From positions 1 to 38,566 of IMG/VR virus record IMGVR_UViG_3300020197_000063: a DNA stretch of 38,566 bases; one strand, 5' to 3'. The position numbers and the translations under genes were made by a program. The notes under the pieces are model-generated. The model did not search any database. It saw nothing but the letters and a program-made list of their open reading frames with translations, and was not told where the DNA came from. Shown here in pieces: positions 4,922 through 36,892 of the stretch (positions are counted from its first letter, which is position 1; each line of letters opens with the position of its first letter). The stretch comes from a virus.

Positions 4922-4950
4922 AGATAGTAAGTGGATCGGTGATTGTCAAG
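4922..4950 (-). promoter_or_regulatory. Sigma70-like promoter (TTGACA-17-TATCTT)
   Basis: -35 TTGACA at 4945-4950, 17-nt spacer, -10 TATCTT at 4922-4927. It reads leftward into the 4873 gene with about 42 nt of leader and lies 9 nt past the stop of the gene ending at 4960. It should drive the 4873 gene, the polymerase, the 2094 gene and terL. Confidence 0.75.
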
Positions 4951-4959
4951 CGAAACAGA

Positions 4960-5376
4960 CTAATCTTCTTGGGGAGGGAGGTCGTCCCAGATGTCGGCGG
5001 GGACGAAGGCGTGGAAGAAGAACTGGCAAAGGGCGTCGTCGGAGTCGGTCGGGATCTCCTCTCGCCCCGCCACATCCTGCGCCAGCGAGGGCCAGTTTTG
5101 CGTCGTAAGCGGCTCGAAGAGGAGGACGGAGATCACCTCCGGGGGAGAGTCTGTCTGACGAAAGTAGATGGCCTGCCCGTCCTGCTGCTCCACGTATCCC
5201 ACCGCCTTCCGAAGCGGGTGGGTCCAGGAATTGACCACATAGGCCAAACGTAGTCCGACCTTTCCCCCAGGAAGGGGAGCAGAAGCTTCTCGAACCCCCA
5301 TCGCCACGACGGCCCGGTCCTCTTTGCCGTTGATGAGGTAGGTGAGCTTGTAAACCTGATCGAAGTTGAACGACAT
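4960..5376 (-). CDS. Unknown 138-aa protein
   Basis: Not recognised. The start ATG 5376 shares its A with the TGA stop of the giant gene upstream (TGATG), so translation is coupled. The sequence looks like a compact alpha/beta or beta-rich domain: YKLTYLINGKEDRAVVAM, then GLRLAYVVNSW and IYFRQTDSPPEVISVLLFEPL, ending in an acidic tail (DDLPPQED). No membrane segment, signal peptide or Cys motif is present. Its only partner in the unit is the 1859-aa protein, suggesting a chaperone, immunity or assembly role for it, but nothing in the sequence shows this. Confidence 0.75.
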   Translation of the reverse strand: MSFNFDQVYKLTYLINGKEDRAVVAMGVREASAPLPGGKVGLRLAYVVNSWTHPLRKAVGYVEQQDGQAIYFRQTDSPPEVISVLLFEPLTTQNWPSLAQDVAGREEIPTDSDDALCQFFFHAFVPADIWDDLPPQED

Positions 5377-8300
5377 CACAGCGACCCCTTGCTGGTGGCT
5401 TGGGCGAGCACCTTCTGAAGCTTCGCTGCGGCAGTCGAGATGTTCGAGGCGACGACGACGAAATCCGAGATCGGCACTCCGTTCGCCTCGACGAAGCCTT
5501 CGTTGATGAGCTTCTGAATCAGGGACTTCCGATGTTGTTCGCTTTGCACGACCAGGCGGAGGATGCGCGAGGAGTCGATGCCCTTGCGGAACATGATCTC
5601 GTTGCCGTCCCCGGCGTGCGGGATGACCGCCGAAACAGGCTGCCGAGACCGCCACGCGGAACCATGCGGCCCGTCGTCCGGGTCGGAGCACCCGTAGGAG
5701 TCGCCGGAGTACATGTAGCAGTCGAGCCGGTCGAGTTCCGTCGGCGCAACGATGGCTTGAACCGGCCACGACCAGTGGAAACTGTTGGAGTGGTTGGTCG
5801 CCACCCGACAGAGCGCCTGATCCCCCGCACCGTTGTTGGTGTCCTCGCTGATGGAGATCCCGTTAGGAACGACCCCGAGGCAGACCCGTTCGGAGATAGC
5901 AAGAACCCCAGAGCGCAAGATGGAAGGAACCTGATCGTCCGCCTTGATGCCGTTGTAGACGAAGCGCGCGCCCATCTCCTTCCAACGGCCGGGAAGGACG
6001 TGGGAAACGTGCCCATCCGTCGTGACCCGAAGCTCCACCTTGTCGATCTTCTCCGGGCTGTAGCCGACCTTCGCTAGCTCGGCGCGCAGCTTCTCGACCG
6101 TGTACTCCGCCTTCTTCAGACTGTCGGACACCTGGGGGGCGACCGCCCAGAGGAGGCGGGCCAGCTTGACCACCTCCTGCTCCTCCGGGGTCGGGTTGCG
6201 GAGCACCTCCTTCGACAGACCCGGCTTCATCGCTTCGAGCGCCTCGGCGAAGGCGTCCCGAACCGACTGGCCGGGCTTGGGGCGGACCTTGGCAACGACC
6301 GTTCCCATATAGGTGAAGGGCTTCCGCTTGCGCTGGAAGAAGATCTCCGAATTGCCCGCCGTCCACTTCTCTCCCGAGAGAGTGGAGATCGGTGAGGCGG
6401 CCTTCTCCTTCATCGCGTCCGTGCCGATCACGTAGTTGTAACGCGGCATGGGGAGATAAGCGGACTGCCCCGGAGGAACGTCGGTGTCGTCGAAGTAGTA
6501 GATGTTCGACCCAGAGCCTCGGCGGTGGCCGCGCAACTTGAACTGGAACAGGTAGGCCACCTCGCCGTTCGCTTCCAGGATGCGCCGCCCCTTGAGGACG
6601 TGGCCCTCGACCAAGGGGCTCCCGGCAGAAAAGTTCTTCCCGACGTGACCGAGTTTCATGTCCTCGATGTGGTAAAGCTCGTCCGAGTTGATGTTGGCGA
6701 GCCCCGGCTCCGTCACATCGACGCCTGCCGCCACATCTGCCGCGTCCACGATGATCGGCTGAATTTCCTCCTTCTCGACGAAGGCTGCGTCCCAGTCCGC
6801 CTTCTTGACGACGACCAGGGTGTAGCTCTGCCCGTAGATGATAGCGGGATGCTCCGGGTGGAGCGAGAGCCCCATCTCCTTCAGGAAATTGGAGAGCTTC
6901 GCTTCGTTCGTCCCCTTGGAGATCCGCACCACGTACTTCGTGGGGTCGCCCTTCCCCTGATCTGGCCCCTGCGTCGGCAGGTAGACCTTGTGCATCACTC
7001 CTGCCGCCAGCGCGTAGTCGGCCGCCGAATACTTCACTATCTTCTTCTTCGGCGGGGACGCCGCCTCCACCGGGGCGACCGGCTCCCCACCGCTCGGCAG
7101 CGAGACGGCGACGTAGGGCGTGATCGGGATCGCTCCGGTCGGGTCCCACCCGGCAGCAAAGGTGTAGGTCCCTTTGGGGTGAACAAGTCGCTTCCGATGA
7201 AGCATGGTCAGGAAGGTCTCAAAGTCGGCGCGGAGGTTCTTCTTCCGGGCGAAGGCACGTTTCAGGAACACGTCCTTCAGGTTGGGGGAGTTCTTGAAAA
7301 AGTCGTCCGCGTACCGCCGAAGCTGTTCGACATAGGCTTGGTCGGAGAGAGCTTCGATAGCCTCCAGGGTCGGCAGCATCGCCTTGGGGTCGAAGTCGAA
7401 CTTCCCGTCGGAGAAGGCGCTCCAGAAGGAGTTGTAGTAGGGCGTCTCCGGGTTCGGCTTGTAGTCGAGCGAAAGCCGCTCCTGGTCGGTCCCCGCCACC
7501 ACATCCGAGACCATGAAGCGGAACGCCTGCTCCTTGTCCACCCCCAACACCCCGCCTTCGTGAAGGCGAAGGAGGTTGTCCGCATGAGAGTCATGCTGGC
7601 CCATGAGCCAATCCAGGATGTGTTCACTCGCCACATCCTGCTTCTCGGCCATGGAGAGCTTCGCCGGGGACACCCCCTGAAGAGTCCCCTTCTTGGGGAT
7701 CATCGGCTGGAGGGTGACGTGCTCCTGCTTCCCGTTCTGGGTACGGATGAAGTGACGGATCGGAACGGTGCGATCTGGCTTAACCGCCTGGGATACCGTG
7801 GCGAAAACCTCCTGCGCGATGGCAGCAAAAGGCTTGGCTTTTTTCGTGGCATCCTTCTCGTAGGCGAGCTTGAGGAGGTATTGCTTCCCGGTCGCCGGAT
7901 CGTTGTAGAAATGCTTCTCGCCCGCCCCGCCCAGCTTGGCGGGACCGCCGTAGGTCATCGCGGAGAGTTCCGGCACGTTCGGCGGCGGCAGGGTTCCCGT
8001 GTGCGGAACCGAAACCGCGACCGCCGGAGCCGCCGCGATGGGAGGCGCACCGACCGAAGGCGTCGGAGTCGGAGAAGACGGGGCAACCGGGGCTTCGACG
8101 TACTTGGCCTTCTTGTACTTGGCCTTCCACTGGACCCCGTACTTGGCCTTCATCTCGTCGGCGAAGGCCCCCTTCAGCTTGTCGAGGGGGAGGCTGGAGT
8201 TCTCAAGAGCCTTGTCCACCGCCTTGAGGAGCGCCTGGGTCTGGGCCTTGTGGTAGTGCCCCTTCCAGTAGGGGCCGTAGTCCGAAGCGAGCGCGGCCCG

Positions 8301-22992: not shown

Positions 22993-23835
22993 CTAAAACG
23001 GAACCGAGTTCCCGTCGCTGCTCTTGTCGTCGAGGTCGTCCGCGTCCACCTTCACCCCCATCAGGCGCTTCTTCATCTGGTCAGGGGAGAGCGGGCGCAG
23101 GAGGCGCTCGTAGTTGAAGGGCACGATCTCGGGGAGGATCTTCCCGTTCTCGTCGAGGTGGACTTGGAACAGGCCCTTCACCCGGTCCAGCAGCGTGAGC
23201 GGCGAGCCGTCGTCCTTCGTGCCGACCTCCTTCGTCGGGTTCGCGTTCGCCTCAGCGAAGATGTCGGAGATCTTGCGGCCCCTGTAGCTGGCGACCGAGA
23301 ACAGCTTCGCTATGTCCACCTGCTTGACGTACTCGAACTCGTCGCCGACGCGAGGCACCTTCTCGCCGGGACTCCGCTTGGCCTTCCAGAGGATGGAGGC
23401 GAGCGAACCGCGCTCGACGCGGTTCATCCTCAGTTTGAGGATGGTCCCGGTCTTTGCCGGAAAGAACCGCATCTCGTACTGGTGGACCTTCCCGTCCTTG
23501 CCCGTCCACGAGGAGCAATCGACCACCGTGAAGTAGCCGACGTAGTAGCGGGCGCTCTCTCCGTTGGGACGGATCAGCTTCTCGCAGCACGGGGTTTCGT
23601 CTTCGACCCCGCGCAGGCAGGTGAGGATGGTCTTGAAGCTGTTGTTGATCTTCGGGTTGTGCTCCCACATGCAGGTCGGTTCGTCGTCCACGAAGACGAA
23701 CTCCTTCGGTCCGACGATCTTCCCGCCCTCCTCGCGGGACTTCGACACCCAGAAGCGGTCGGGGCCGAAGCCCTCCTCCTGCTCCCGCTTCACCCTATCG
23801 GCCCCTGAGAACCCGGTCTCAAACCACTGGCCCAT
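22993..23835 (-). CDS. Putative gp32-like single-stranded DNA-binding protein
   Basis: 280 aa. ATG 23835 with AAGGAG at 6 nt. It opens GQWFETGFSGADRVKREQEE, followed by a beta-rich core: GKIVGPKEFVFVDDEPTCMW, the CLRGVEDETPCCEKL segment, ARYYVGYFTVVDC and a MRFFPAKTGTILKLR stretch. The Cys residues (CMWEHN, CLRG, CCEKL) could bind zinc as in gp32. The C-terminus is acidic and ends DDLDDKSSDGNSVPF, resembling the DDDIPF-type tip by which SSBs recruit partners. It has its own promoter (23910-23938) and a downstream hairpin, as expected for an abundant protein, and lies beside primase, helicase and loader. Family assignment is inference from architecture. Confidence 0.72.
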   Translation of the reverse strand: MGQWFETGFSGADRVKREQEEGFGPDRFWVSKSREEGGKIVGPKEFVFVDDEPTCMWEHNPKINNSFKTILTCLRGVEDETPCCEKLIRPNGESARYYVGYFTVVDCSSWTGKDGKVHQYEMRFFPAKTGTILKLRMNRVERGSLASILWKAKRSPGEKVPRVGDEFEYVKQVDIAKLFSVASYRGRKISDIFAEANANPTKEVGTKDDGSPLTLLDRVKGLFQVHLDENGKILPEIVPFNYERLLRPLSPDQMKKRLMGVKVDADDLDDKSSDGNSVPF

Positions 23836-23909
23836 GTGCAACTCCTTCTGGCGATCTCGCCGGTTGACGGTCACGGGTTCATCAAGGCATCAGCCCGAAC
23901 CCATAGAAC

Positions 23910-24963: not shown

Positions 24964-25332
24964 CTACTTCTTCCCCGCCGGAGACTTGTCCGGCGTCGGT
25001 TGGTCCGACTTCGGTTGGTCCGACTTCGGCGCGGGCTTTCCCTTCTCTCGCTCCCCTATGAAAGAGGCGTAGAGCGTGTCGAAGGCGCGGGCCTTCTGCG
25101 GACCCTCTCGACGATGTTCTCGCTCCCGTTGCAACCCCTTGGGCGTGAGCTTGATCTTTTCTCCCGCCCCATCTTCGGAACCCACCTGGAGGTAGCCGTG
25201 CCGAACCAGTTGGGCGCGGCAGATCTGAAACGCCTGCTGGAACCGTTCCTTGCTGCGCACGCGGAGCGACCGCCCCACATAGACCGCGTAGGTTCAGTGC
25301 TTGACCAGGAGAGGAATCGAGGCAGCAGACAT
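24964..25332 (-). pseudogene. Small winged-helix-like ORF interrupted by an in-frame TGA at codon 13
   Basis: ATG 25332 overlaps the DnaB stop (TGATG), the coupling rule of this operon, and reads MSAASIPLLVKH, then TGA (25294-25296), then in the same frame TYAVYVGRSLRVRSKERFQQAF and on for 110 codons. Without the stop it is a 122-residue protein with a helix-turn-helix/winged helix look (SKERFQQAFQICRAQLVRHG, wing YLQVGSEDGAGEKIKLTPKG) and a KSDQP repeat near its Lys-rich C-terminus. A GTG at 25278 could restart translation to give 104 aa. TGA ends many other genes here, so it is not recoded generally. Nonsense mutation, sequencing error, readthrough and internal restart all remain possible. 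Confidence 0.6.
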
Positions 25333-26636
25333 CAGAAGGGGGGCTCCTCGTTCGTCTGGGGGGCCGTTTTCGGATCCGGGGCGAACACCTCTTCGACATC
25401 CCCGCTACCCTTCGGGATCTCCGTGAAGTCCATCGCCAGGAAGTCCCAGCGGATGTCGAAATCCTCCGCCTCCCCTTCTCGCGTCTTCAGCGGTTTGATG
25501 CGTAGCCTCTTCTCTGCGATCATCTCCTCGGTTCGGATCATCCCGAAGATCATGTCGGCGTTCCAACCCGCCACGTCGGTCAGCGCGATGGACTCGGCCT
25601 TGACGGAAGCGGCATCGTTCGACTTCACCTCCCGGTTGAACTGCATGGTGACGACGATCGGTTTCTTCAGCCGCGCCGCGAGGCGCTTCAGTTCGTCGAA
25701 GGCGTTGGCCGCCTTCTCGGATCGCGTCTTCCCTTCGACCCGCAGGAGATAGGCCCCGTCCAAAAGAACCAGGTCGGGACTGGCCTCGTCGATCGCCGCC
25801 TCGAAGGCGTCAAGGCGGAAGTCGAAGTCACCCCCGATGAAGGCGAACTGGTCCCCTTGGACGAGATTCTGGATGCCCTTCTCCAGCTTGGCGCGCGCGA
25901 ACGGAGAGAGCTTGCCGCGCACCCAGTCCGTGTAGGGAACCGCGTGCTCGATGCACAGGACTCGGCCCGCCATCGTGCGAGGAAGCATCTCGGTCGTCGC
26001 CAGGAGAACCCGGTGCCCGGCCTTCCACGCTTGACGGATGATGAGCGCCGCCGCCCAGGACTTGCCGGTGCCCATGCGAGCGACGAACAGAGCCAAGTCC
26101 TGCGGCCAGAGGCCGAGCGTGCTGTCGTTGGCCCGCGCCCACGGGAACAGGATGCCGGTCTTCCCCGACTCCTTCTCCAGGTAGTGCTCCCACGCCAACC
26201 TCGCCACGTCGGGGAAGTACGAGATAGTCGATCCTGCGGTGTGGTTCTTTCGGATCTCCCTAGTCAGCGCAGCAAGCGATTCGAGCGCCGCGTTCGGGTT
26301 GTTCTGGGCCTGCTCCAAGATCTTCGGCACCCCGGTCTGAAGGGCGAGCCGAAGCCGCGCCTCCAACACCTTGCCGAGGAAGTGGTTGGGGTCGCCATCG
26401 ACGACGGTTTCGGCGGCGTCGGGACCATCGAGGTTGACCCCGGTCTCGAAATGGATGAGCGGGAAGGAGGGGAGTTTGTGGTGCGCCTTGTAGTAGCCGA
26501 GAACGAAATCGTAGGCTTTCCGGCCAGGTCCGTCGGCGGCCAGATCGGAAGGCTGCACACGCTCCATCGCCCGACGCAAGGATGGGGGTCCGCCCATGAC
26601 CAGGGAGCGGACGAAGGATGCGTCGAGATCAGGCAT
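25332..26636 (-). CDS. dnaB: DnaB-like replicative helicase
   Basis: Ring helicase that opens the fork and associates with the primase. 434 aa. The N-terminal domain (1-130) is helical (RRAMERVQPSDLAADGPGRKAYDFVLG). The RecA-like domain has GLWPQDLALFVARMGTGKS, Walker A at 186-193, then ATTEM (strand with catalytic Glu, as in DnaB), a Walker B DLVLLDGAYLL, and IVVTMQFNREV with the Gln/Asn sensor. The C-terminus is acidic and proline-rich and ends TNEEPPF. It starts at ATG 26636, overlapping the loader stop by 8 nt. The adjacent loader and primase support the call over RadA- or KaiC-like ATPases. Confidence 0.92.
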   Translation of the reverse strand: MPDLDASFVRSLVMGGPPSLRRAMERVQPSDLAADGPGRKAYDFVLGYYKAHHKLPSFPLIHFETGVNLDGPDAAETVVDGDPNHFLGKVLEARLRLALQTGVPKILEQAQNNPNAALESLAALTREIRKNHTAGSTISYFPDVARLAWEHYLEKESGKTGILFPWARANDSTLGLWPQDLALFVARMGTGKSWAAALIIRQAWKAGHRVLLATTEMLPRTMAGRVLCIEHAVPYTDWVRGKLSPFARAKLEKGIQNLVQGDQFAFIGGDFDFRLDAFEAAIDEASPDLVLLDGAYLLRVEGKTRSEKAANAFDELKRLAARLKKPIVVTMQFNREVKSNDAASVKAESIALTDVAGWNADMIFGMIRTEEMIAEKRLRIKPLKTREGEAEDFDIRWDFLAMDFTEIPKGSGDVEEVFAPDPKTAPQTNEEPPF

Positions 26637-27300
26637 CGAAGGGTCCCTGGTCGAGGTCGCGCTCCCAATCCCCTGCTTCCTTCGTCTGACGATCCAACAA
26701 GATCTTGTTCCAGTCCGGCCCCGTCATGTGCGTCGGGACGACGTAACGCGACAAGGAGCCGAGGCGCGGGTAGAGATCACGGAGGGTGGACAGCGGGAGC
26801 GACGACGTGATCACCGTGACGCACCGCTCCCGACCTCGGGAGCCGATCAGGTTGAACAGGTCGTCCTGCCCGAAGTAGGGTTGGGTGGCGTGGGAGGCGG
26901 CGAGGTCGTCGAGGACGAGGAGGTCCACGTTCTGCGCGCGTTCGGCGAAGGAGAAGGAGTCGTCGAACATCTGGTTGGTACGAATCGCGTCCCGCATCCG
27001 GGAGGCTGAGGTGAAGAGAGCGGTACCGCCCCAGGAGATCGCGGCCTTGGCGAGGAGAGTAGCGGCGACCGACTTTCCCACGCTGGGAAGGCCGTAGATC
27101 AACAGGCCGTGCCCGAGATGCGCGTAGCGCCGGAAGTCCTTCGCGTAGGCCCGAAGGAGAGCCCGGACCGGAAGCGACACCTCGTCGAAGCAGAGCTTCG
27201 ATCCCCCCGTACACTCCCAGAGCAGGGAGGGGACACGAGCGCGGTGCTTGTCCCGCTCCTCCAGGAGCCGGGGCTGGTCCCGGAAGGCGTAGTCCCTCAC
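26629..27300 (-). CDS. dnaC: DnaC/DnaI/IstB-type AAA+ helicase loader
   Basis: Loads the DnaB-like helicase onto origin DNA. 223 aa from GTG 27300, which overlaps the initiator stop as GTGA and has AAGGGGG upstream. AAA+ motifs: Walker A YGLPSVGKS (70-77), Walker B VDLLVLDDLAA (D131, D132), a sensor-like VTVITSSLPLSTL and an arginine region SRGRERC. The N-terminal 60 residues (LLEERDKHRARVPSLLWECTGG) would bind the helicase. Loader, helicase and primase are translationally coupled behind the initiator, so origin binding, loading and unwinding are made together. Confidence 0.9.
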   Translation of the reverse strand: MRDYAFRDQPRLLEERDKHRARVPSLLWECTGGSKLCFDEVSLPVRALLRAYAKDFRRYAHLGHGLLIYGLPSVGKSVAATLLAKAAISWGGTALFTSASRMRDAIRTNQMFDDSFSFAERAQNVDLLVLDDLAASHATQPYFGQDDLFNLIGSRGRERCVTVITSSLPLSTLRDLYPRLGSLSRYVVPTHMTGPDWNKILLDRQTKEAGDWERDLDQGPFDA

Positions 27301-29039
27301 TTGGCCCCCTTCTGGTTCTGAAGCCACGGCACCTTAGCCTTCGCCGCGTCCAGCTTGGCGTGGAGGGAGGCCGGAGCGAAGGCGTTGGGGTTATTCGCGT
27401 ACCAGGCGTCCACCTCGGCCTTGACCTTGGCGTAGTCCTCCCACACGAACCTCTCCTGGTCCAAGGCGGAGTGGAGGTAGAGCACCATGCCCAACTCCGG
27501 GGCCGTGCGTAGGCCCTTGAAACGGGTCTGGTTGATGTGCCCCCAGTTCCCGAACACGTAGTCCAGCAGCCTCTCCAGCTTGGACAGGGGATACCGGACC
27601 AGGAGTGAGCGTGCCTGCCCCCACTCCGGCCCGGCCCACGGCACCGGCTCGTAGCCGGGGAGGAGGTCGGAGAGGCGCTTGTGCCAGGAGGCTTCGAGCT
27701 TCAGAATCTCCACGGGAGCCTTCCCAGACGCTTTGCCGGGCTTCCAGGGGGTTTCCCCCTCCGGGGAGCTTTCCGATGCCTTGGAAGCGTTCTTGGACGC
27801 TTTGGCGGCCTGTTTGGCGTTCTTGGCGAGAAGGCTGGTCTTGGACTTCTCGGCTCCGGCAGCGTCCGCCGCCATGACAGCCTTCAGGCGGTCGTGGTCC
27901 GGCATCGTTCCCTCCTGGTAGGCTCCGGGTACGAACACGGACCACGACTCCGGCTCGGAGAACGTAGCTGTGGCGGCAGCTACCAGTACAGCTACAGCTT
28001 GGGCTTGAGCCTGTATCATGGGCCGCGTGTTCTGGCTATAGGTCGTATCAGGTACTACTACTGCGACCACATCCCCACCTCCTGCTCCTTCAAGCGAAGC
28101 GCCCTCCGTGGGATGTTGTGCGTGCGAAGCACGCTCAGATCTGATCTCTTCTGGCTGATCTGACCAAGAGGAGAGAGAACATCCGACCGAAGGGAGGATG
28201 TGATCTCCCTCTTGGTCAGTTCTGTTTAGGTGGGACGGGGATGTCCCAAGCCAGGGGACGCAGGTGTCCCAAGCAAACGAAAGCTGACCCCCCTCCCCAC
28301 CAACCCCCTCCTGCTGTTGGAAAACCTCCCACTCCGGGGTTCTCCCCCAAACCGCGTGCTGCGGGAACAGGTAGCTGTTCCCCTGGAACGTGTTCTCGGA
28401 GCGTGCCACGTACAGCAAGCCCCCCCTTTCGAGCACCGCTAGGTTTCTGGCGACCTCCTTCCGGCTCAGGCCGGTGTCCAGGGCTAGGGACTCCTGCGTG
28501 GGGTAACACAGGCGGCGGGACGCCGTACCACGGCCCCAACGTCCTAGTAGGGCTACTAATACCGACTTGGTACCCCACTGTAGGGCTTGGTGGTCGTACT
28601 CCAACACCCAGCAGGGGACGGCTACGAAGGTCCACTTGGTCTGGTACGGGTCCACCACCACCGGCTTCTTCGGGTCGCGGTTTGGCAGGTTGAGGCGCGG
28701 GGGAACCGAGTTCCCCATCCATTCGTGGGCGAGGAAGCGGTACTGGTTCGCGGCGTTGGTGTGGTGGCGCGGCAAGATCTCGATGAGGCCCGCCTTGACC
28801 AGCCGAGCGATACCCCGCTTGACGCTTCGGGTGGTTTTCCCCAGTAACCGCGCCAGGGTGTGCTGGAACGGGTAGCACTTGCGGTTCCGGCCCCAGTAGG
28901 CCAAGAGGCGCGCGAACAGGAACTTGTCGGCGGCGCTCAGGAAGCGGTTGGGGACACGCAAGACCCAGAGGGGGAGGCGGACGAAGGGTCCTGGGTAGAG
29001 GGCGGGATCGACGAAGGTTGAGATGTTCGACAAGGACAC
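27297..29039 (-). CDS. Replication initiator with two winged-helix domains and DnaD-like C-terminal region
   Basis: 580 aa. Two helix-turn-helix blocks: YPFQHTLARLLGKTTRSVKRG...KAGLIEIL (about 56-90) and YPTQESLALDTGLSRKEVARN...ERGGLLYVA (about 185-217), the tandem winged-helix layout of RepA/Rep and phage O-type initiators. A long low-complexity linker (about 240-430; Gln/Ala and Ser/Lys runs) leads to a helical C-terminal domain (LSDLLPGYEPVPW, RYPLSKLERLLDYVFGNWG) resembling DnaD-type replication proteins. GTG 29039 follows AGGAG. It heads the loader-helicase-primase operon and lies directly below a repeat-rich, gene-free tract; part of its linker DNA is also repeat-rich (27960-28275), reminiscent of lambda O containing its own origin. 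The initiator role is inferred from domains and context. Confidence 0.82.
   Translation of the reverse strand: MSLSNISTFVDPALYPGPFVRLPLWVLRVPNRFLSAADKFLFARLLAYWGRNRKCYPFQHTLARLLGKTTRSVKRGIARLVKAGLIEILPRHHTNAANQYRFLAHEWMGNSVPPRLNLPNRDPKKPVVVDPYQTKWTFVAVPCWVLEYDHQALQWGTKSVLVALLGRWGRGTASRRLCYPTQESLALDTGLSRKEVARNLAVLERGGLLYVARSENTFQGNSYLFPQHAVWGRTPEWEVFQQQEGVGGEGGQLSFAWDTCVPWLGTSPSHLNRTDQEGDHILPSVGCSLSSWSDQPEEIRSERASHAQHPTEGASLEGAGGGDVVAVVVPDTTYSQNTRPMIQAQAQAVAVLVAAATATFSEPESWSVFVPGAYQEGTMPDHDRLKAVMAADAAGAEKSKTSLLAKNAKQAAKASKNASKASESSPEGETPWKPGKASGKAPVEILKLEASWHKRLSDLLPGYEPVPWAGPEWGQARSLLVRYPLSKLERLLDYVFGNWGHINQTRFKGLRTAPELGMVLYLHSALDQERFVWEDYAKVKAEVDAWYANNPNAFAPASLHAKLDAAKAKVPWLQNQKGAK
28160..28219. 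repeat. 60-bp imperfect inverted repeat inside the initiator gene
   Basis: Outer arms CTGACCAAGAGG (28160-28171) and CCTCTTGGTCAG (28208-28219) are perfect 12-mers; inner arms ACATCC (28179-28184) and GGATGT (28196-28201) pair around an 11-nt loop, with near-matching purine tracts between. It lies in the variable linker of the initiator, with CTGATCT direct repeats just right-adjacent to its low-coordinate side (28141-28147 and 28155-28161) and TGTCCCAAGC repeats at about 28243 and 28266. It could be an initiator binding site or an mRNA structure. Confidence 0.7.
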
Positions 29040-29159: not shown

Positions 29160-29271
29160 CTCCGAGCGGCGCTTTGAGGACGTGTCGGGAGCGCGTGCCG
29201 GATTGGCCTGGCCCTGGCTGGTTTCAGCCAACCCAGCTTTTCCCGACACGTCCTCGAAACGTCGCTCGGAG
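29160..29271. repeat. Large dyad: 31-bp inverted repeats, 50-nt spacer, in the gene-free tract before the initiator (putative origin)
   Basis: Left arm 29160-29190 and right arm 29241-29271 match as inverted copies at 28 of 31 positions; the inner 15 nt (GAGGACGTGTCGGGA) are identical. The spacer itself holds a small hairpin (GGCTG-GTTT-CAGCC). No credible gene occupies 29040-29409. The dyad lies about 120 nt upstream of the initiator start, with iteron-like repeats between, and downstream of a promoter at 29363-29391, so it would also be transcribed. A replication origin or a regulatory stem-loop are the main options; a mobile-element end is unlikely because the intervening DNA is too short to code for anything. 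Confidence 0.75.
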
Positions 29272-29907: not shown

Positions 29908-30201
29908 CTACTTCTTCTCGATCCTCTTCGAGGGGGCTGCGCGCCTTTCTGGCTTGGGGGGCTGCGCGCTTTTCGGGAGCTTGCCCTTCGGTACCCACCC
30001 CTTCCCGCCGCACGCCTCGCATACCACGAAGCTCGCCAGCGCCCATCGGTTGTCGAGGAGGATCAGTTGACCCCCTCGCTTGAGTCGCTGGAGCGTTCGA
30101 TCTAGCACCACGTCGTTCTTCCCCTCTACTCCGAGCCGTTTCCTGATCTCCTGGTTCTTCAGCGGTCCACCCACCAGCACGCGCTTCAGTTCGCTTTCCA
30201 T
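29908..30201 (-). CDS. Unknown 97-aa protein: winged-helix-like with half zinc finger
   Basis: ATG 30201, 9 nt after the upstream stop. Residues 1-58 read as a small winged helix: ELKRVLVGGPLKNQEIRKRLG, VLDRTLQRLKRGGQLILLDNRW. Then VCEACGGKGWVPKGK, a CxxCxGxG half-zinc-finger of the DnaJ type, and a basic Pro/Lys tail. Probably a nucleic acid-binding accessory protein. About 110 nt of DNA without a convincing gene follow before the small membrane ORF. Confidence 0.72.
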   Translation of the reverse strand: MESELKRVLVGGPLKNQEIRKRLGVEGKNDVVLDRTLQRLKRGGQLILLDNRWALASFVVCEACGGKGWVPKGKLPKSAQPPKPERRAAPSKRIEKK

Positions 30202-30210
30202 CGGCTACTC

Positions 30211-30651
30211 CTAGAACAACAGGGCCGGATCGTTGCCCATCTCCGGCGTCGGTTGAGGTTCTTCGTCCAGTACCTTTCGGGTCGCCAGCGTCGCCGGAAT
30301 TACGAACACCCGCAAGTCTTCTCGCATCCCCTCTCCTTCGAGCGCCCACACCTTGTAGCGCAGGCACTTGTGACACCACGGTCCTTCGAGGAGGTCCGCA
30401 CCTAGTTCAAGCCAGTGAGCGTGACGGCGGGCGACGAAACGACAGCGGGCGCACTCGATGCCGTGTGGTCGGTATGTCCACGCCTGCCGGAAACGCGCGT
30501 AGAGGTCTTCGAGAAGCTCTTGTTCGATCAGGGTGTTTCGGGTGTCGATCTGTCCGAGGAGGGAGGCCACACGCAGCACGACCGGCGAGCTTGTTTCGGG
30601 ACAGCCGACCAAGGCCAGTCCCCGAAGCAGCGTGCGCCGAGGAGCCTTCAT
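30211..30651 (-). CDS. Unknown 146-aa protein with two CxxC pairs
   Basis: ATG 30651 overlaps the VWA gene stop as ATGA. Starts KAPRRTLLRGLALVG; helical up to IEQELLEDLYARFRQAWTYR; then IECARCRFVARRHAHW and WCHKCLRYKVW, two CxxC pairs 34 residues apart that likely bind zinc; then beta-rich LRVFVIPATLATRK and an acidic tail. It is co-translated with the VWA and AAA+ genes, so it may be a third component of that system (inference from coupling). Confidence 0.75.
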   Translation of the reverse strand: MKAPRRTLLRGLALVGCPETSSPVVLRVASLLGQIDTRNTLIEQELLEDLYARFRQAWTYRPHGIECARCRFVARRHAHWLELGADLLEGPWCHKCLRYKVWALEGEGMREDLRVFVIPATLATRKVLDEEPQPTPEMGNDPALLF

Positions 30652-32372
30652 CCCCAAGCCAGGTAGCGGGTGAAGCCGCCTACGACCAGCCGGATCAGGC
30701 CGTCGCCGAAGCGTTCCTCGTCGTCCACCCACCAGTCGTTCGTCGGACCCAACATCGCACGTAGGCGGTCGAGGGGAAGTCCGGGGTTGACGAGCAACCC
30801 CCCGGTATAGATCCCGTAGCGGTGTGCGCGCTGCAACTCCTCGCGCACGAAGATCTGAAGCTGCTCGGAAGGGATCGGTTCTCCGTTCCGCCGCTTGTAC
30901 TCGGGTACCCCGTCCGAGATGAAGGCGAGGTACTTCGCCTCGGGAACATGCGCCAGCTTCGTCACCGCAAGCCGGAGCGCCAAGTGCAGCGGTGTGAGTC
31001 CGTCCACGGGGAACGAGACGAAATTCTGCACCGGGAGCCGTCGCGGGACACGCAACACGCTCACCGTACCCGCCTCGGGCGAGCAAACCAACCAGACCTC
31101 GAACTCCACGAACGGGTAGTCCAGGGCGGCCTGGATAATCCTTCCGGCGCGCACCGCCCGATCGGACTTCTCCCCTTGCATGGAAGCCGACCAATCGAGG
31201 AGCAGGACGGCTCGGAAGCCTCGGTCGGGGCGCGGGGCGCGGAAGATCGGACGAGGCTGGCCGGTGGCTCGCTGCTGGATGACCGCCTGAAGGCTGACGC
31301 GCAAACCGCTTCGACGAAGCTCATGCTGTCGTCGTCCCATCACGCGCGCGAACTCCTGGCGCAGCCGGGTGATCAACGCACGATCTTCTGTGTCGAGTGG
31401 GGTAGGCGTCCCTTCAAGGCTCGCGTCCTGAAGGAGCACTCGTGCTGGAGTGTCCGACCGGAGGAGATCGTCTGCGCCCATTCGGTTCGGAAATTGAGAA
31501 CGAGCACGCGCCACGATTTTGTGCATCGCAGCATCGTTCCGATGAGCCAGGTTCTTCAACGCCCTCTCGTCACCCAGGTCCGTGGCGAAGACCTCGCTGA
31601 CCAGTCGTTCGGCTTCCCTAAGGGTGTTGCGCGAAGCGCGGGTAGGAGCGGTGAGCGGACGGGCACGCTCCATCATGGTTCGTGTGGGGGTCTGGCAGAG
31701 GTTCACCACCTCACGGAGAGCTTGGACCCGTTGGGCAACCGAGGCCGTCGCTGCCAGTAGCCCGAGGTGCTGGTCTACCCAGCGCATGAGCAACCACTTC
31801 GCCACGGGGATGGTCGCGTCGGGGCCGCGTTGGTAGACCATTCGGAAGGCTTGCTCGGTGGTAGGCAGGAAGCGCAGGAGGCGGGGAGGCGGGGGAAGGC
31901 TCGCCTCGACGCAACTGAGCAGGACGAGGAGATCTCCTCGGGAGGTGTAGGGGAGCGCCTGTTCGCAGGCGAGGCGACGCAAGGCGTCGAACGAACCGGG
32001 GAATATCTCGACCCACCACGACTCGACCCGGTGTACTTCGAGCAGCCCGACCATGTGGTCGAGTAGCTCCCGGAGCCGTCCTGCGTCCGGGGACTCTTCT
32101 CGCTGGTTCTCGGCCAGGCGTTCGATCTTTTCCGCGTACTGGGCGCGGAACAAGGCGAGCGCGGTGGGGTTGGTTTGGAAGACGATGTGGGCGAGGAGCC
32201 GTTGCGTCCAGCGAACGGCCTGGGGATCGCCAAGCGGAACGACCAGTCGATAGCCGTCGGTGGTTGGAGGTCTCCCGTGGATCAACCAGAGTTTCCGCCC
32301 GCAGAGACGGGCGAAGGTGTCCACGGTCTTGGCGGCGATCCTTCGCCGCTTTTGGTACAGATCTCGCTCCAC
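30648..32372 (-). CDS. VWA-domain protein, CobT/NorD-like partner of the MoxR ATPase
   Basis: 574 aa. The first 380 residues are mostly helical, with a conserved-looking hinge (NRMGADDLLRSDTPARVLLQ) and an Arg-rich run. The C-terminal von Willebrand A domain (about 385-560) has a full MIDAS: DWSAS (D393, S395, S397), T460 in VDGLTPLHLAL, and D487 in FISDGVPE. This matches the CobT/NorD group, which work with MoxR/CobS-type AAA+ ATPases as metal-insertion or protein-remodelling chaperones. The ATPase gene is 2 nt upstream, the classic pair order. Around residue 121, VEIFPGSFDAL is almost the same as a segment in the C-terminus of the 33276-33917 protein. Confidence 0.87.
   Translation of the reverse strand: MERDLYQKRRRIAAKTVDTFARLCGRKLWLIHGRPPTTDGYRLVVPLGDPQAVRWTQRLLAHIVFQTNPTALALFRAQYAEKIERLAENQREESPDAGRLRELLDHMVGLLEVHRVESWWVEIFPGSFDALRRLACEQALPYTSRGDLLVLLSCVEASLPPPPRLLRFLPTTEQAFRMVYQRGPDATIPVAKWLLMRWVDQHLGLLAATASVAQRVQALREVVNLCQTPTRTMMERARPLTAPTRASRNTLREAERLVSEVFATDLGDERALKNLAHRNDAAMHKIVARARSQFPNRMGADDLLRSDTPARVLLQDASLEGTPTPLDTEDRALITRLRQEFARVMGRRQHELRRSGLRVSLQAVIQQRATGQPRPIFRAPRPDRGFRAVLLLDWSASMQGEKSDRAVRAGRIIQAALDYPFVEFEVWLVCSPEAGTVSVLRVPRRLPVQNFVSFPVDGLTPLHLALRLAVTKLAHVPEAKYLAFISDGVPEYKRRNGEPIPSEQLQIFVREELQRAHRYGIYTGGLLVNPGLPLDRLRAMLGPTNDWWVDDEERFGDGLIRLVVGGFTRYLAWG
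31980..32014. repeat. 35-nt repeat, copy 1 (in the VWA gene)
   Basis: Matches 33315-33349 at 33 of 35 positions in direct orientation, including a 23-nt exact core. In both places it is read in the same frame as VEIFPGS(F/I)(D/N)AL. Confidence 0.85.
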
Positions 32373-32374
32373 GG

Positions 32375-33223
32375 TCAGGGAAGGTACTCAGGGAAAGCGG
32401 TGCCGGGGAAGGTGTCTGCCATCCATTGCGCGGCGGTGGCCCGGTCGTGCTCCTCGAACTTCCCCAAGACGCAGCGCAACGCCTTCTCCTCCCCCACCAA
32501 GGGGATGTCGGTCACGATCTGCACCACGTCGCGTGGCGAGATGATGTAGCCGCTAAAGCCTTGCCGGGTCAGGTTGGCGAGGACCAGTGTCCGGTTCAGG
32601 AGAGATTGCTCCACCTTCCCGACCGCCGCCGTCACGAGATCTGCTTCCTGTGCCGCCGTCGGGTAGCCGAGCGGCCAAAGCCGCAGGCGCGAGCGGAGGT
32701 CGTGGTTCAGCCGGTACGTCCCGCTCTCCTCCTCCACCATCGTCGCCGTGACCCAGAGCGTCGCCCCAGGTTGGAGGTGGAAGACCTGTCGCGCTTCCGG
32801 TACCACCACACGACGGCGGAAGTCCGTGAGGGCGTTCAGGTGCTTCTGCATCGCGGGTCGGAGCGACGCGAGTTCTTGCAGCAGGAGCAGGCAGAACCCG
32901 GTCTCGTTGGCGACCTCGATGGCTGACACGAGCGGCCCGAGTACGAAGGGACTCACCTCGGCGTCGAGGTAGTGGGAACCGACCAGTTGCTCCCGCTGCG
33001 TGTCCTCGGCGCAGTCGTAGTCGATGAAGTGCTTCCCCCGCGAAGCGGCCCACGCCTCCAGGCTCAGGCTCTTGCCCACGCCCTTCGGCCCGACCAGTCC
33101 GAGCGGGAGGCCACTCGACGCGAAGGTGTCGTAGAGAGGGAAAAGGTTGAAAACGTCCGCGTAGGCCAACCCCTCGGCGGGGCGGCAGTCGGTGGTTGGT
33201 ATTCGTTGGAGAACCAGACCCAT
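32375..33223 (-). CDS. MoxR/CobS-like AAA+ ATPase with altered Walker B
   Basis: 282 aa. Walker A GPKGVGKS at 45-52; Walker B CLLLLQE at 111-117 where the usual Asp is Gln116 but Glu117 is kept; sensor 1 LWVTATM; an arginine-rich region LNHDLRSRLRLWPLGYP as in the MoxR sensor/finger area. The fold order fits the MoxR/CobS clade, and the VWA partner follows. Loss of the Walker B Asp would weaken Mg binding, so ATP turnover may be slow. The start ATG 33223 has a strong AGGAGG, which also occupies the -10 position of the TTGACA promoter at 33230-33258. Confidence 0.87.
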   Translation of the reverse strand: MGLVLQRIPTTDCRPAEGLAYADVFNLFPLYDTFASSGLPLGLVGPKGVGKSLSLEAWAASRGKHFIDYDCAEDTQREQLVGSHYLDAEVSPFVLGPLVSAIEVANETGFCLLLLQELASLRPAMQKHLNALTDFRRRVVVPEARQVFHLQPGATLWVTATMVEEESGTYRLNHDLRSRLRLWPLGYPTAAQEADLVTAAVGKVEQSLLNRTLVLANLTRQGFSGYIISPRDVVQIVTDIPLVGEEKALRCVLGKFEEHDRATAAQWMADTFPGTAFPEYLP

Positions 33224-33229
33224 TCGTTC

Positions 33230-33258
33230 CTCCTAGCAGGAAGGAAACGGATTGTCAA
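33230..33258 (-). promoter_or_regulatory. Promoter-like site (TTGACA-17-TAGGAG) overlapping the MoxR gene's Shine-Dalgarno
   Basis: -35 TTGACA at 33253-33258, 17-nt spacer ending CTGC, -10 position TAGGAG at 33230-33235, followed by GAACGA and ATG 33223. If this -10 is used, transcription begins at or next to the ATG and the AGGAGG is not transcribed. If upstream transcripts from 33982-34010 read through, the same bases act as the Shine-Dalgarno. The same DNA thus may serve two modes of expression. Confidence 0.5.
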
Positions 33259-33275
33259 TGGAAGCGGAGGAGGGG

Positions 33276-33917
33276 CTACTTCTTGGCCTTGGCCTTGGCC
33301 TTGGCGGGGCGGTTCAAGGCGTTGATCGAACCGGGGAATATCTCGACCCCCGCAGGGGCGGGGAGCGTCGGGGCGCTCTCGGGCAGGTATGCCTCCTTGG
33401 CCTCGTCGAGGGCCAGGCGGATCTCCTTGTTGGGGAAGTCCTTCAGCGCCCACGAGGGGTCGCCCAGGCAGGACGCGACCTCCTCGGCGGTGATCACGCC
33501 CGCCTTGACCAGCTTCTCCAGCTTCGAGGGGTCGAACACCGTCTGGGCCGGGATCGTGGTCTGCACGCAGACCGCTTCCTTGCCCTTCGCGGCGAGCAGC
33601 GCGTAGACCTTCTCCGCCACCGGCTCCTCGCTCTGGCGCTTCTCCGCCAGCAACGCGCCGTAGCCCGCGACCTCGGCACGGAACCCGCCCTTCTCGTTCT
33701 CCGTTCCCAGACCCTTCACGATGTCGAGGAGGTGGGCGCGGAGCGCGCCGTAGCGGTCCTTCGCCAGCTTTTCGATGGACTTGACCACCGAGAAGGCCAG
33801 CGCCTCGACCTCCACCGGCAGGCTCCCCGGTGGGGCCTGGAACAGCGCGCCCCCGGTCACGGGGCGCAGCGACTTGACGACATCGAGCTTCTTCTCATCG
33901 ATCTGTTTGTCGGTCAT
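33276..33917 (-). CDS. Unknown 213-aa protein with Lys/Ala tail, upstream of the MoxR-VWA pair
   Basis: ATG 33917 with AAGGAG 7 nt upstream and its own promoter. Mostly helical and charged: VKSLRPVTGGALFQAPPG at the start, a helix AFSVVKSIEKLAKDRYGALRAHLLDIVKGL, a middle PVAEKVYALLAAKGKEAV, a segment PSKLEKLVKAGVITAEEVASCLG. The C-terminus carries VEIFPGSINALN followed by an AKAKAKAK tail. The VEIFPGS segment is shared, at DNA level too, with the VWA protein (35 nt, two mismatches). It may be a substrate or adaptor of the MoxR-VWA machine; this is inference. Confidence 0.78.
   Translation of the reverse strand: MTDKQIDEKKLDVVKSLRPVTGGALFQAPPGSLPVEVEALAFSVVKSIEKLAKDRYGALRAHLLDIVKGLGTENEKGGFRAEVAGYGALLAEKRQSEEPVAEKVYALLAAKGKEAVCVQTTIPAQTVFDPSKLEKLVKAGVITAEEVASCLGDPSWALKDFPNKEIRLALDEAKEAYLPESAPTLPAPAGVEIFPGSINALNRPAKAKAKAKK
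33315..33349. repeat. 35-nt repeat, copy 2 (in the 213-aa gene)
   Basis: Second copy of the repeat at 31980-32014, differing at two positions, 1.3 kb away in the C-terminal part of the 33276-33917 gene. Same reading frame. Suggests recent copying of a short peptide-coding segment between neighbours. Confidence 0.85.
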
Positions 33918-34882: not shown

Positions 34883-34911
34883 CCAAAAGCAAGTGGTTTA
34901 GGGATTGTCAA
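34883..34911 (-). promoter_or_regulatory. Promoter (TTGACA-17-TTTTGG), weak -10
   Basis: -35 TTGACA at 34906-34911, whose TGA (34908-34910) is the stop of the uracil-DNA glycosylase gene. A 17-nt spacer ends in TTGC; the -10 position TTTTGG is a poor match, so extended -10 contacts through TGC may be needed. The leader to ATG 34844 is about 32 nt. The spacer shares CCACTTGC with the promoter at 36864-36892. Confidence 0.55.
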
Positions 34912-35543
34912 CCTGTCCCGAGGACATCCAGACAGGCCTTCAGCGCCAGCATATCTGCCCACGCTTCCTTCTTCAGGGCGGGTTCTCGAAGCAGGCGAGC
35001 CGGATGGTAGGTGACGCGGAGCGGAACCCCCTCCCAAACGTGCCAGCGTCCGCGCCACTCTTCGAGCTTCTTCTCTTTCCCGAGAAGCGCGGTAGCGGCG
35101 GTCTTGCCGAGAGCGACAAGAAGCCGAGGGCGCACCGCGCGAAGCTGCCCGACCAAGAACTCCGCGCAGGCCTCGATCTCCGCCTTCTCCGGCGCTCGGT
35201 TCTCCGGCGCTCGGTGCAGGACCGCATTGGTGATGAAGACTTGGTTCCGGGTCAGGCCGATCGCCGCAAGCATATTTTCCAGGAGCCTCCCCGAGCGGCC
35301 GACGAAGGGCTCTCCTTGTCGGTCCTCGTTCTCTCCAGGACCCTCACCCACGAAAGCGATCAGAGGATGATCGGGGCCTGCTCCGAAGACCAGCGAGGTC
35401 GCGGCGAGGTAGAGCGGACACTTTTGGCAGGTCTCCGCACGATCACGGAGGTGTGCCAACGTCGCTCTCCCAGCGTCGAGGATCGAGGACGGAAAGAGCG
35501 CCAGGTTGTTCGACGGCGCTACGGGGCTCTGGCGGTCAGCCAC
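34908..35543 (-). CDS. Type-4/5-like uracil-DNA glycosylase with one Fe-S cysteine replaced by His
   Basis: Removes uracil from DNA. 211 aa. CQKCPLY (C39, C42) starts the family's iron-sulfur motif; FVGEGPGENEDRQGEPFVGRSG (64-85) is the glycosylase motif 1 with the catalytic region; ITNAVLHRAPENR is motif 2; VTYHPARLLR (H180) is motif 3. The third Fe-S ligand is normally Cys in KCRPPxNR; here it is H110, exactly 16 residues before C126, so the cluster would be Cys3-His or lost. GTG 35543 overlaps the preceding gene by 8 nt. A phage repair gene of this type argues that its DNA contains normal thymine, not uracil. Confidence 0.9.
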   Translation of the reverse strand: MADRQSPVAPSNNLALFPSSILDAGRATLAHLRDRAETCQKCPLYLAATSLVFGAGPDHPLIAFVGEGPGENEDRQGEPFVGRSGRLLENMLAAIGLTRNQVFITNAVLHRAPENRAPEKAEIEACAEFLVGQLRAVRPRLLVALGKTAATALLGKEKKLEEWRGRWHVWEGVPLRVTYHPARLLREPALKKEAWADMLALKACLDVLGTG

Positions 35544-35919
35544 TTCGCCACCTTTCCAGGGCGGGGGTGAAGACCAGTCCGTGTTGCTTGGTGATCTTGT
35601 AGGGGTCCCGCAAGTCTGCGACCGCCTTGTCGATCACCGCCGGTTCGGGACGCCGCCAGGAGGGATTCTTCTGGAAAGTAGTATTCATGGGCGAAACCGG
35701 CTTCGTCAGGACGACCCGGGCCAGCTTCCACCTCCCCGGGTCGGGGAGGCGCTTGTGCCACGATGCGGAGGCTTCGCCTGGCTTTGCCAGCAGCTTGTCG
35801 ATCTGCCTTGCGGTGAGCGGATCCTTCTCGTAGAGCAGCGCGTAGACCTTCTTTGCCTGCTCGTTGAGCCTCCCGCTCGCTTGAACCTCCAGGTACGCCT
35901 CGACCGAGGTGGCCCGCAT
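35536..35919 (-). CDS. Unknown 127-aa winged-helix-like protein
   Basis: ATG 35919, 2 nt after the previous stop. Residues 1-45 contain VEAYLEVQASGRLNEQAKKVYALLYEKDPLTARQIDKLL, which fits the helices of a winged-helix DNA-binding domain. The rest is basic with strands (RWKLARVVLTKPVSPMN, HGLVFTPALERW). SWHKRLPD resembles a SWHKRLSD stretch in the initiator, with a shared DNA run of about 14 nt. Probably a DNA-binding or regulatory protein. Confidence 0.72.
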   Translation of the reverse strand: MRATSVEAYLEVQASGRLNEQAKKVYALLYEKDPLTARQIDKLLAKPGEASASWHKRLPDPGRWKLARVVLTKPVSPMNTTFQKNPSWRRPEPAVIDKAVADLRDPYKITKQHGLVFTPALERWRSG

Positions 35920-35921
35920 CC

Positions 35922-36806
35922 TTACTTCTTCCCCCGCTTCCGGCGGTCGGGAAGGTCGTTCTCGACGAACACGTTGCCGCCGCGTACTGGGGTGTCCTTC
36001 CAGAACGCCTCGGCCTTGGCCCGGTCGTCCAAGATCTTCGCCGCCTCTTGGTTATTCGCGTCCTGCTGCTCGTGGCCCTGGTACCACGCCTGCTTCTCGT
36101 CTTGCGTGAAGCGGGCGGGCGGATGCTTGAATCGGTGCTCCTTGGCGGCGAGCTTCCCCGCCTCGAACGCCGCGTCCAGCGCCGCGTGCGTTCGGTTCGC
36201 CGCACGGTGCTTGTCGGCCTGTCGTTCAAGGTCGGAAACGGTCGGAGCGGAGAAGTCCGGGGAGAGGGCGCGGGACGCCGAGTCGGCGCGTCCCCGCTCG
36301 ATCATTCTGGGAAAGGCTCCCCGGGAGTCACTCCGCTCGTAGCGACGGTTGGTTACGGAGGGCGGGTCCGCCGACTCGACCGACTCGAAGTCGAAGGTTA
36401 CCTCGTTCTTGAAATTGGTGACCGGCACCTGCCAGTCGAAGCGTGTCTGATATTTCGTGCGCTTCGTTTTGGCGATCTCCTCCTCGGCGTTCTTCATCAC
36501 ACCCCAGACCCGGAGGTAGAGGTCGTGGCGAGGATCGCCTTGCTGCTTCGTTACCTCGTTCTTGAAATTGGTATAGGTGATGTCCTGCGTGATCTTCGGC
36601 ATCGCTGCCGCGAGATCGTCACGGGACACGAACCCCCGGTAGGGGTAGTCGCGCATCTGGAGCATCACCGTCGGGCCGAGCGTGGGCAGGTACTTCGTGC
36701 GCAGGTTTTCCAGGTCGCCCTTGACCCTGGCGCGCACGATCACCTGGTTCGCCTTGTCACGATCAGCGACGACGGAGAAAAAGCCGAAGGGGGTAAACAG
36801 CCACAC
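35922..36806 (-). CDS. Conserved bacterial/phage hypothetical domain fused to a long helical tail
   Basis: 294 aa. The first 115 residues (MWLFTPFGFFSVVADRDK, VIVRARVKGDLENLR, DYPYRGFVSRDDLA, YTNFKNEVTKQQGDPRHDLYLRVWGVM) match a widespread small protein of unknown function that ends around the RHxxYLxVW motif. Here it continues for 180 residues: a KRTKYQTRFDWQVPV segment, a second TNFKNEVT coded by an exact 23-nt repeat, then a charged helical tail ending RRKRGKK. The start is GTG 36806 with AAAGGA upstream, about 51 nt below the promoter at 36864-36892. The duplication suggests the tail was joined or expanded by recombination at that repeat. Confidence 0.8.
   Translation of the reverse strand: MWLFTPFGFFSVVADRDKANQVIVRARVKGDLENLRTKYLPTLGPTVMLQMRDYPYRGFVSRDDLAAAMPKITQDITYTNFKNEVTKQQGDPRHDLYLRVWGVMKNAEEEIAKTKRTKYQTRFDWQVPVTNFKNEVTFDFESVESADPPSVTNRRYERSDSRGAFPRMIERGRADSASRALSPDFSAPTVSDLERQADKHRAANRTHAALDAAFEAGKLAAKEHRFKHPPARFTQDEKQAWYQGHEQQDANNQEAAKILDDRAKAEAFWKDTPVRGGNVFVENDLPDRRKRGKK
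36397..36419. repeat. 23-nt exact direct repeat, distal copy
   Basis: Identical to 36550-36572, 153 nt (51 codons) away in the same frame of the 35922-36806 gene, coding TNFKNEVT both times. This copy lies at the junction between the conserved N-terminal domain with its spacer and the unrelated tail. Confidence 0.9.
36550..36572. repeat. 23-nt exact direct repeat, proximal copy
   Basis: Copy inside the conserved N-terminal domain (YTNFKNEVT before the RHDLYLRVW motif). In the family this position is normal, so this is the original and the copy at 36397-36419 the derived one (inference). Confidence 0.9.
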
Positions 36807-36863: not shown

Positions 36864-36892
36864 AAAGTAGCAAGTGGCTTGGGGATTGTCAA
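36864..36892 (-). promoter_or_regulatory. Promoter (TTGACA-17-TACTTT)
   Basis: -35 TTGACA at 36887-36892; TGA 36889-36891 is the stop of the 54-aa membrane protein. The 17-nt spacer ends in TTGC, -10 TACTTT at 36864-36869 followed by AT-rich DNA. Drives the 36806, 35919 and glycosylase genes. Confidence 0.75.

Follow-up and report, generated by a model that had tools for sequence, protein, structure and literature searches.

The IMG/VR virus record IMGVR_UViG_3300020197_000063 was analysed over 38,566 bases (the window), whose content is that of an early or replication region: a PolA-type polymerase, a helicase, UvsX, an exonuclease, DnaB, DnaC and an HTH_36 replication initiator. Within it lies a run of four minus-strand genes. 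In the direction of transcription these are P0001 (213 aa, 33276..33917), a MoxR AAA+ ATPase of the CobS/CbbQ/NorQ type (282 aa, 32375..33223), its VWA partner (574 aa, 30648..32372) and P0004 (146 aa, 30211..30651), a zinc-ribbon-like protein with cysteine pairs whose ATG overlaps the VWA stop codon. Conservation of this gene set in related phages, inside a replication block, is real. The motifs of these genes, the two copies of the 35-nt repeat and the flanking genes from DnaB to the uracil-DNA glycosylase gene, as located below, are likewise on the minus strand.

Conservation of the gene set in a replication block

Used as queries, the window MoxR and VWA proteins gave no match in single-protein scans of viral contigs or in tblastn of a phage collection. 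Because both are too divergent for such direct searches, relatives were sought through the replication genes and then by alignment. Scans with the helicase and polymerase yielded related phage records, of which three carry homologues of P0001, MoxR and VWA in unchanged order, and a MoxR alignment search of IMG/VR returned 22 stretches. Near-duplicates and one weak partial match were left out of these, giving a comparison set of 17 non-redundant IMG/VR relatives plus the window; the records may be fragments, which bears on the absence of a gene from any of them. The A4 scan of genome contigs found no relative.

A first-pass annotation, made from the letters of the window alone, had treated the four genes as one set that might recur in other phages. 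This held for the MoxR–VWA pair, adjoining in 17 of 17 relatives, and for the P0001 family, which lies upstream of MoxR in 16 of 17 at distances from adjacent to about 1.2 kb, but only partly for the CxxC protein P0004, found downstream of VWA in 8 of 17 (whole-record check included). An independent scan driven by P0001 alone returned 11 loci, none of them outside the records in which MoxR–VWA had been identified before, and in the records examined the P0001 family occurs only beside this pair.

The wider gene order, uracil-DNA glycosylase–small genes–P0001–MoxR–VWA–(P0004)–(P0005)–Rep–DnaC–DnaB, is recognisable piecewise in most loci, with the glycosylase upstream in 9 of the 17 relatives and DnaC/DnaB downstream in 13. 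In the window, the set is followed by P0005 (97 aa, 29908..30201), which from its sequence appears to be a small winged-helix-like protein and has homologues after the set in seven relatives, then by the HTH_36 replication initiator-like protein (27297..29039) and by the DnaC-like loader and DnaB-like helicase (25332..27327). A uracil-DNA glycosylase-superfamily gene (34908..35543) marks the opposite edge of the neighbourhood. We give about even chances to the reading that this is a phage MoxR AAA+/VWA remodelling pair of the CobS/CobT–NorQ/NorD kind, fixed in the replication block of an uncultivated tailed-phage lineage and serving replication.

The ATPase and its VWA partner

The window MoxR protein matches AAA_5 (2.7e-9) and phrog_249 (8.7e-11), the phage 'porphyrin biosynthesis' (CobS) family, and its family profile matches midasin, CbbQ, CobS and NorQ. 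The AAA_5 domain, Walker A, catalytic Glu117, Arg finger and sensor 2 are all present, as expected of a MoxR AAA+ protein. By convention, Walker B carries an Asp for Mg2+ and then the catalytic Glu (PMC9976466). The Walker B region of the window protein reads C-LLLLQE-L, with Gln116 (codon CAA, 32876..32878) at the first acid position, where 17 of 17 relatives have Glu; thus hhhhQE occurs in the window only and hhhhEE in every relative. The first-pass annotation, which saw LLLLQE in place of an expected LLLLDE, was right about the altered site and wrong about the norm, because DE is the convention and the form in three cultured relatives, whereas EE is that of the clade. The sensor-1 segment is altered too: it reads TATMV (32735..32749) against G[TS]MN in all 17 relatives, with a one-residue deletion and an Asn lost in the window alone. 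Two residues looked for in an active ATPase, the Mg2+-binding acid of Walker B and the sensor-1 Asn, are therefore missing. Judged from these residues, the changes lower the likelihood of an active ATPase and leave the fold and family assignment intact.

Two relatives, L124 (5627-7675) and L126 (5438-7525), have MoxR genes with an intein-like insert of about 400 residues directly after Walker B, starting at a C that follows LEEIN and ending at an HN that precedes S; by eye, no familiar domain could be made out in its middle part.

The VWA partner consists of an N-terminal metallopeptidase-like domain (residues ~1-225), a short linker and a C-terminal NorD-like VWA domain (~302-574). Individual family members match VWA_CoxE, CobT_C and VWA_2 weakly, and the family profile matches NorD and CobT. 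A structural model (mean predicted local distance difference test score, pLDDT, of 84) has a helical domain at the N-terminus and a VWA domain at the C-terminus. The known structure that it resembles most, over mainly residues 325-574, is that of the VWA domain of NorD in the NorQ–NorD complex (Z 20.1 over 238 aligned residues, root-mean-square deviation 6.2 A), followed in the next top rows by other NorD and midasin MIDAS (metal ion-dependent adhesion site) chains. The MIDAS motif of the window protein is DWSAS (DxSxS, 31182..31196), the remaining Thr and Asp of MIDAS are conserved as well, and the site is complete in all family members compared. The VWA fold, the complete MIDAS and the match to a known MoxR partner together identify a protein of NorD/CobT type. 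The window has the shortest inter-domain linker (59 residues vs 85-183); in NorD, the linker is essential for metal insertion (PMC13036017).

In the N-terminal domain, homology holds across the whole-domain alignment even where the metal motif is lost. Twelve of the 18 family members have HE[LI]xH together with ED or DD in a later L[ED]DxRV segment. The remaining six (the window, L113, L116, L121, L124 and L126) combine a degenerate HExxH with E followed by R, K, W or V, and over the 18 members loss of HExxH and loss of the acidic ligand go together without exception. In the window, the two sites read QRLLAH (32187..32204) and LLEVHR, and the conserved (E)DxRVxSLWxxLYPGS segment is represented by LLEVHRVESWWVEIFPGS (31992..32045). 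The family tree, whose deep nodes are weakly supported, places the losses in one clade of four (L113/L116/L124/L126) and on two separate long branches, L121 and the window.

These findings bear on two roles that have been suggested for similar pairs. For jumbo phages, it has been proposed that a MoxR–VWA chaperone with a peptidase folds and processes structural proteins during virion assembly. Our family shares the architecture of MoxR plus a metallopeptidase-vWA protein (PMC7824862), and an intact HExxH in 12 of 18 members is consistent with such processing. However, the pair is located in the replication block, away from structural genes, and with the metal motif degenerate in the L113/L116/L124/L126 clade, in L121 and in the window, the function that these members have retained is not that of a peptidase. 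We consider a virion-assembly role unlikely. The second suggestion, made for viral cobST (PMC8651126), is that a CobS/CobT-like helper works with host CobN to boost cobalamin synthesis. The match of MoxR to phrog_249 and to solved CobS, and the weak match of VWA to CobT_C, would fit a cobaltochelatase. Yet, with positive search controls, CobN was found in none of 21 records, which may be fragments, and the same 21 records contained no convincing ribonucleotide reductase (weak matches in three). The metallopeptidase motifs of the N-terminal domain, the replication genes alongside and the loss of ATPase and metal-site residues from the window copy also argue against this role, which we think very unlikely.

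A further explanation is decay of the window copy: MoxR and VWA would be on the way to losing their function, and the changes in Walker B (QE), sensor 1, HExxH and the linker would be neutral. The window is the longest branch of the family, several catalytic residues have been lost together and the linker is the shortest, all as decay would predict. Both reading frames are nevertheless intact, Walker A, the catalytic Glu, Arg finger, sensor 2 and MIDAS are kept, and MoxR is still about 43% identical to its relatives, so that decay seems distinctly unlikely. Within a remodelling pair that serves replication, the window MoxR is probably a slow, assembly- or binding-biased version, because the Walker B acid and sensor-1 Asn are lost while Walker A, the catalytic Glu, Arg finger and sensor 2 are kept.

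The shared repeat, accessory proteins and other features

P0001 has a helical N-terminal half and a small alpha/beta core. The window protein has no Pfam or PHROG match above background, with weak PHROG matches in one or two relatives, and comparison of its fold with PDB gave no convincing match, only weak ones to uncharacterised phage proteins. Its C-terminal tail varies in length and sequence among relatives and is predicted to be disordered (model pLDDT ~50). Just upstream of P0001 in L103 (12952-13233) and L104 (4868-5149) lies a 93-aa open reading frame with a KH-like GRIIGKRGRTIRAL motif, which suggests an RNA-binding protein.

The VWA and P0001 genes are linked by a 35-nt repeat with two mismatches, exactly as the first-pass annotation described it. 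One copy, encoding VEIFPGSFDAL, is in the VWA gene (31980..32014) and the other, encoding VEIFPGSINAL, in the P0001 tail (33315..33349). The copies are identical at 33 of 35 positions with an exact core of 23 nt, and the similarity extends to 41 of 47 positions over 31968-32014 and 33303-33349. When the window was simulated 60 times with an order-3 Markov model, exact repeats were usually no longer than 15-17 nt and reached 21 nt once; since the 23-nt core exceeds this maximum, the repeat is well beyond chance. All nine codons for identical amino acids are the same in both copies, among them ATA, used for 2.7% of Ile residues, and GGT, used for 14% of Gly residues, an outcome with a probability of about 5e-6 by convergence under the codon usage of the window. 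The identical codons, rare ATA among them, thus point to a recent DNA duplication. Exact direct repeats of at least 15 nt number 20 in the window against 3.1 expected, some of them tandem or of low complexity.

Two other short repeats were observed nearby: 33584-33618 and 35823-35857, 35 nt at 86% identity between P0001 and the open reading frame 35536-35919 (KVYALL), and 36397-36419 and 36550-36572, a 23-nt exact repeat inside the open reading frame 35922-36806 (TNFKNEVT twice). We also considered the shared repeat as an RNA element and rejected it: the two copies fold differently (z 1.15 and -1.59) and Rfam had no match in the region.

It had been suggested that the shared peptide is a docking or decoy motif, in which the P0001 tail mimics the VWA segment and binds or blocks the ATPase complex. 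The repeat is real and sits in an exposed tail, and P0001 is genetically linked to MoxR–VWA. However, VEIFPGS is absent from the P0001 tails of all 16 relatives, and in each of these 16 other loci P0001, with its variable tail, and VWA share five residues at most. When viral contigs were scanned with degenerate DNA for VEIFPGS, 13 stretches matched, all of them unrelated or out of frame, mostly chance frames, and none belonged to a MoxR–VWA locus. In the VWA protein, VEIFPGS is the window form of the family RVxSLWxxLYPGS (Gly126 invariant, Ser127 nearly so) and belongs to a conserved part of the N-terminal metallopeptidase-like domain, whereas the published MoxR contacts are made through the VWA finger and C-terminus (PMC13036017). 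The synonymous identity indicates recent copying, and duplications of similar size occur nearby, one of them also in P0001. A docking or decoy function is therefore unsupported and highly improbable. Most probably, VEIFPGS is shared because 35-47 nt of a conserved segment of the VWA gene were recently copied into the disordered tail of P0001, and it stands outside the mechanism of the pair; recent duplication explains the repeat, the codon identity, the absence in relatives and the neighbouring short duplications. The case also cautions against assigning a function to a shared peptide where a small and recent duplication is visible in the DNA.

The C-terminal signature of the P0004 family is (D/G/L)LF. 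Of nine members, eight have L[FY] as their last two residues, compared with about 1.3% of open reading frames of at least 100 aa. The beta-clamp-binding consensus is QL[S/D]LF or QxxLF (PMC12309361), and the Gln at position 1 of this motif is absent from P0004; because of this lack, the resemblance of its C-terminal end to a clamp-binding tip is a lead only.

Several features elsewhere in the window were also recorded. Four copies of a minus-strand sequence containing TTGACAATC lie at or near gene boundaries (4926-4949, 33235-33258, 34888-34911 and 36869-36892), and another TTGACAATC precedes P0001 at about 34000; these are possibly phage promoters. A 31-nt inverted repeat (29160-29190 and 29241-29271, 90%) in the ~0.9-kb gap upstream of the replication initiator is a candidate origin or regulatory site. 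A 293-aa protein (22993-23874) ends in ...DGNSVPF and the DnaB-like helicase (25332-26636) in ...NEEPPF, both resembling the acidic PF tips of single-stranded DNA-binding proteins, and the 293-aa protein might be the phage member of that class. The 1859-aa open reading frame 5376-10955 has no PHROG, NCBIfam or PADLOC assignment and is conserved in L010 (phmmer 3e-138) beside the polymerase.

Proposed mechanism and comparison with known systems

In NorQD, the VWA domain inserts its finger into the pore of the ATPase and contacts the post-sensor-1 loop with its C-terminus; as ATP is turned over, it is twisted relative to the N-terminal domain via the linker (PMC13036017). By analogy, a phage MoxR hexamer would grip the finger and C-terminus of its VWA partner, the MIDAS site would recruit the target, and ATP-driven rotation of VWA against its own N-terminal domain would remodel it. 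The target would most likely be a phage or host replication protein, with P0001 and P0004 as accessory or target-recognition partners. Most family members would bring to this machine a metallopeptidase-type HExxH...ED site in the N-terminal domain, gone from the window. Given the altered Walker B, the altered sensor-1/post-sensor-1 region and the short linker, the window pair would either be slow in ATP hydrolysis or work through binding.

Several points weigh against a remodelling pair that serves replication. MoxR is missing from the related 92-kb record G001, although homologues of DnaC, DnaB, helicase and UvsX are present there, so the set is either dispensable or located outside that record, and P0004 is absent from about half of the loci. 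Position among replication genes is no proof of a replication role; virion assembly has been proposed for the jumbo-phage pair by Iyer et al. (PMC7824862), and for viral cobST the role assigned is cobalamin synthesis (PMC8651126). One nucleotide separates Gln116 from Glu, so a sequence error is possible at that residue alone. We infer the target, the ATPase activity and the formation of a complex from sequence and analogy. A more specific version, in which the MoxR–VWA ring is brought to the fork by the (D/G)LF clamp-binding-like tip of P0004 with help from P0001, and loads, unloads or dismantles a replisome component, is speculative and, taken whole, improbable; in it, Walker B in its EE/QE form would have been tuned for slow hydrolysis, and the metallopeptidase domain would repeatedly have become a non-catalytic binding domain.

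Among known systems, the MoxR-vWA ternary conflict systems (VMAP, iSTAND; PMC7159879) likewise combine MoxR and vWA with third proteins. Pfam, NCBIfam and PADLOC recognised no VMAP or effector domain in P0001 or P0004, which were not profile-compared with VMAP, and PADLOC gave no defence-system match. CbbQ/CbbO and RavA/ViaA follow the same principle of MoxR plus VWA, and CbbQ is among the top sequence matches, but their targets are metabolic enzymes and they are not phage systems. NorQ/NorD (PMC13036017, PMC9976466) provides the best structural match of VWA, a MoxR match to NorQ and the layout of N-terminal domain, linker and VWA; it differs in its N-terminal domain and target, the window linker is very short, and no nitric oxide reductase is known here.

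Viral cobST is widespread, with cyanophage cobT usually mis-annotated as a peptidase and a role in cobalamin synthesis with host CobN suggested in 2021 (PMC8651126). Cultured examples are Pelagibacter phage Mosig, Brevibacterium phage Cantare and Gordonia phage Kvothe. Cultured phages carry distant MoxR homologues (hidden Markov model E 1e-10 to 1e-17) with a large HExxH and MIDAS protein nearby, which in Mosig and Cantare has HExxH, then LEDxRI…YPG or YPD, then MIDAS, in the same order as in our family. Their MoxR differs, at about 25% identity and with DE in Walker B in the three that are readable (Kvothe, Mosig and HHTV-2), and no P0001-like neighbour was detected among the proteins tested.

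Group 2.2 jumbo phages, for whose pair Iyer et al. suggested virion assembly in 2021 (PMC7824862), are likewise tailed phages in which MoxR adjoins a vWA gene that also encodes a metallopeptidase domain at the N-terminus. The present set differs in its replication-block position, in its P0001 and P0004 companions, in the EE/QE Walker B and in loss of the metal site from six of 18 members. The kind of system is already known, since phage MoxR–vWA pairs with an N-terminal metallopeptidase (PMC7824862) and viral cobST (PMC8651126) have been described, and the term 'uncharacterised' in the first-pass annotation was thus only partly right. New here are the replication-block placement, the linked P0001 and P0004 families, the EE/QE Walker B and the paired metal-site loss. 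That EE/QE occurs naturally in Walker B, and that the peptidase site has been lost repeatedly, hints at which parts of the machine are dispensable. The functions given for these widespread phage pairs in the papers found, cobalamin synthesis or virion assembly, are proposals, and conserved placement among uracil-DNA glycosylase, Rep, DnaC and DnaB, with two linked accessory families, adds a third, testable functional option.

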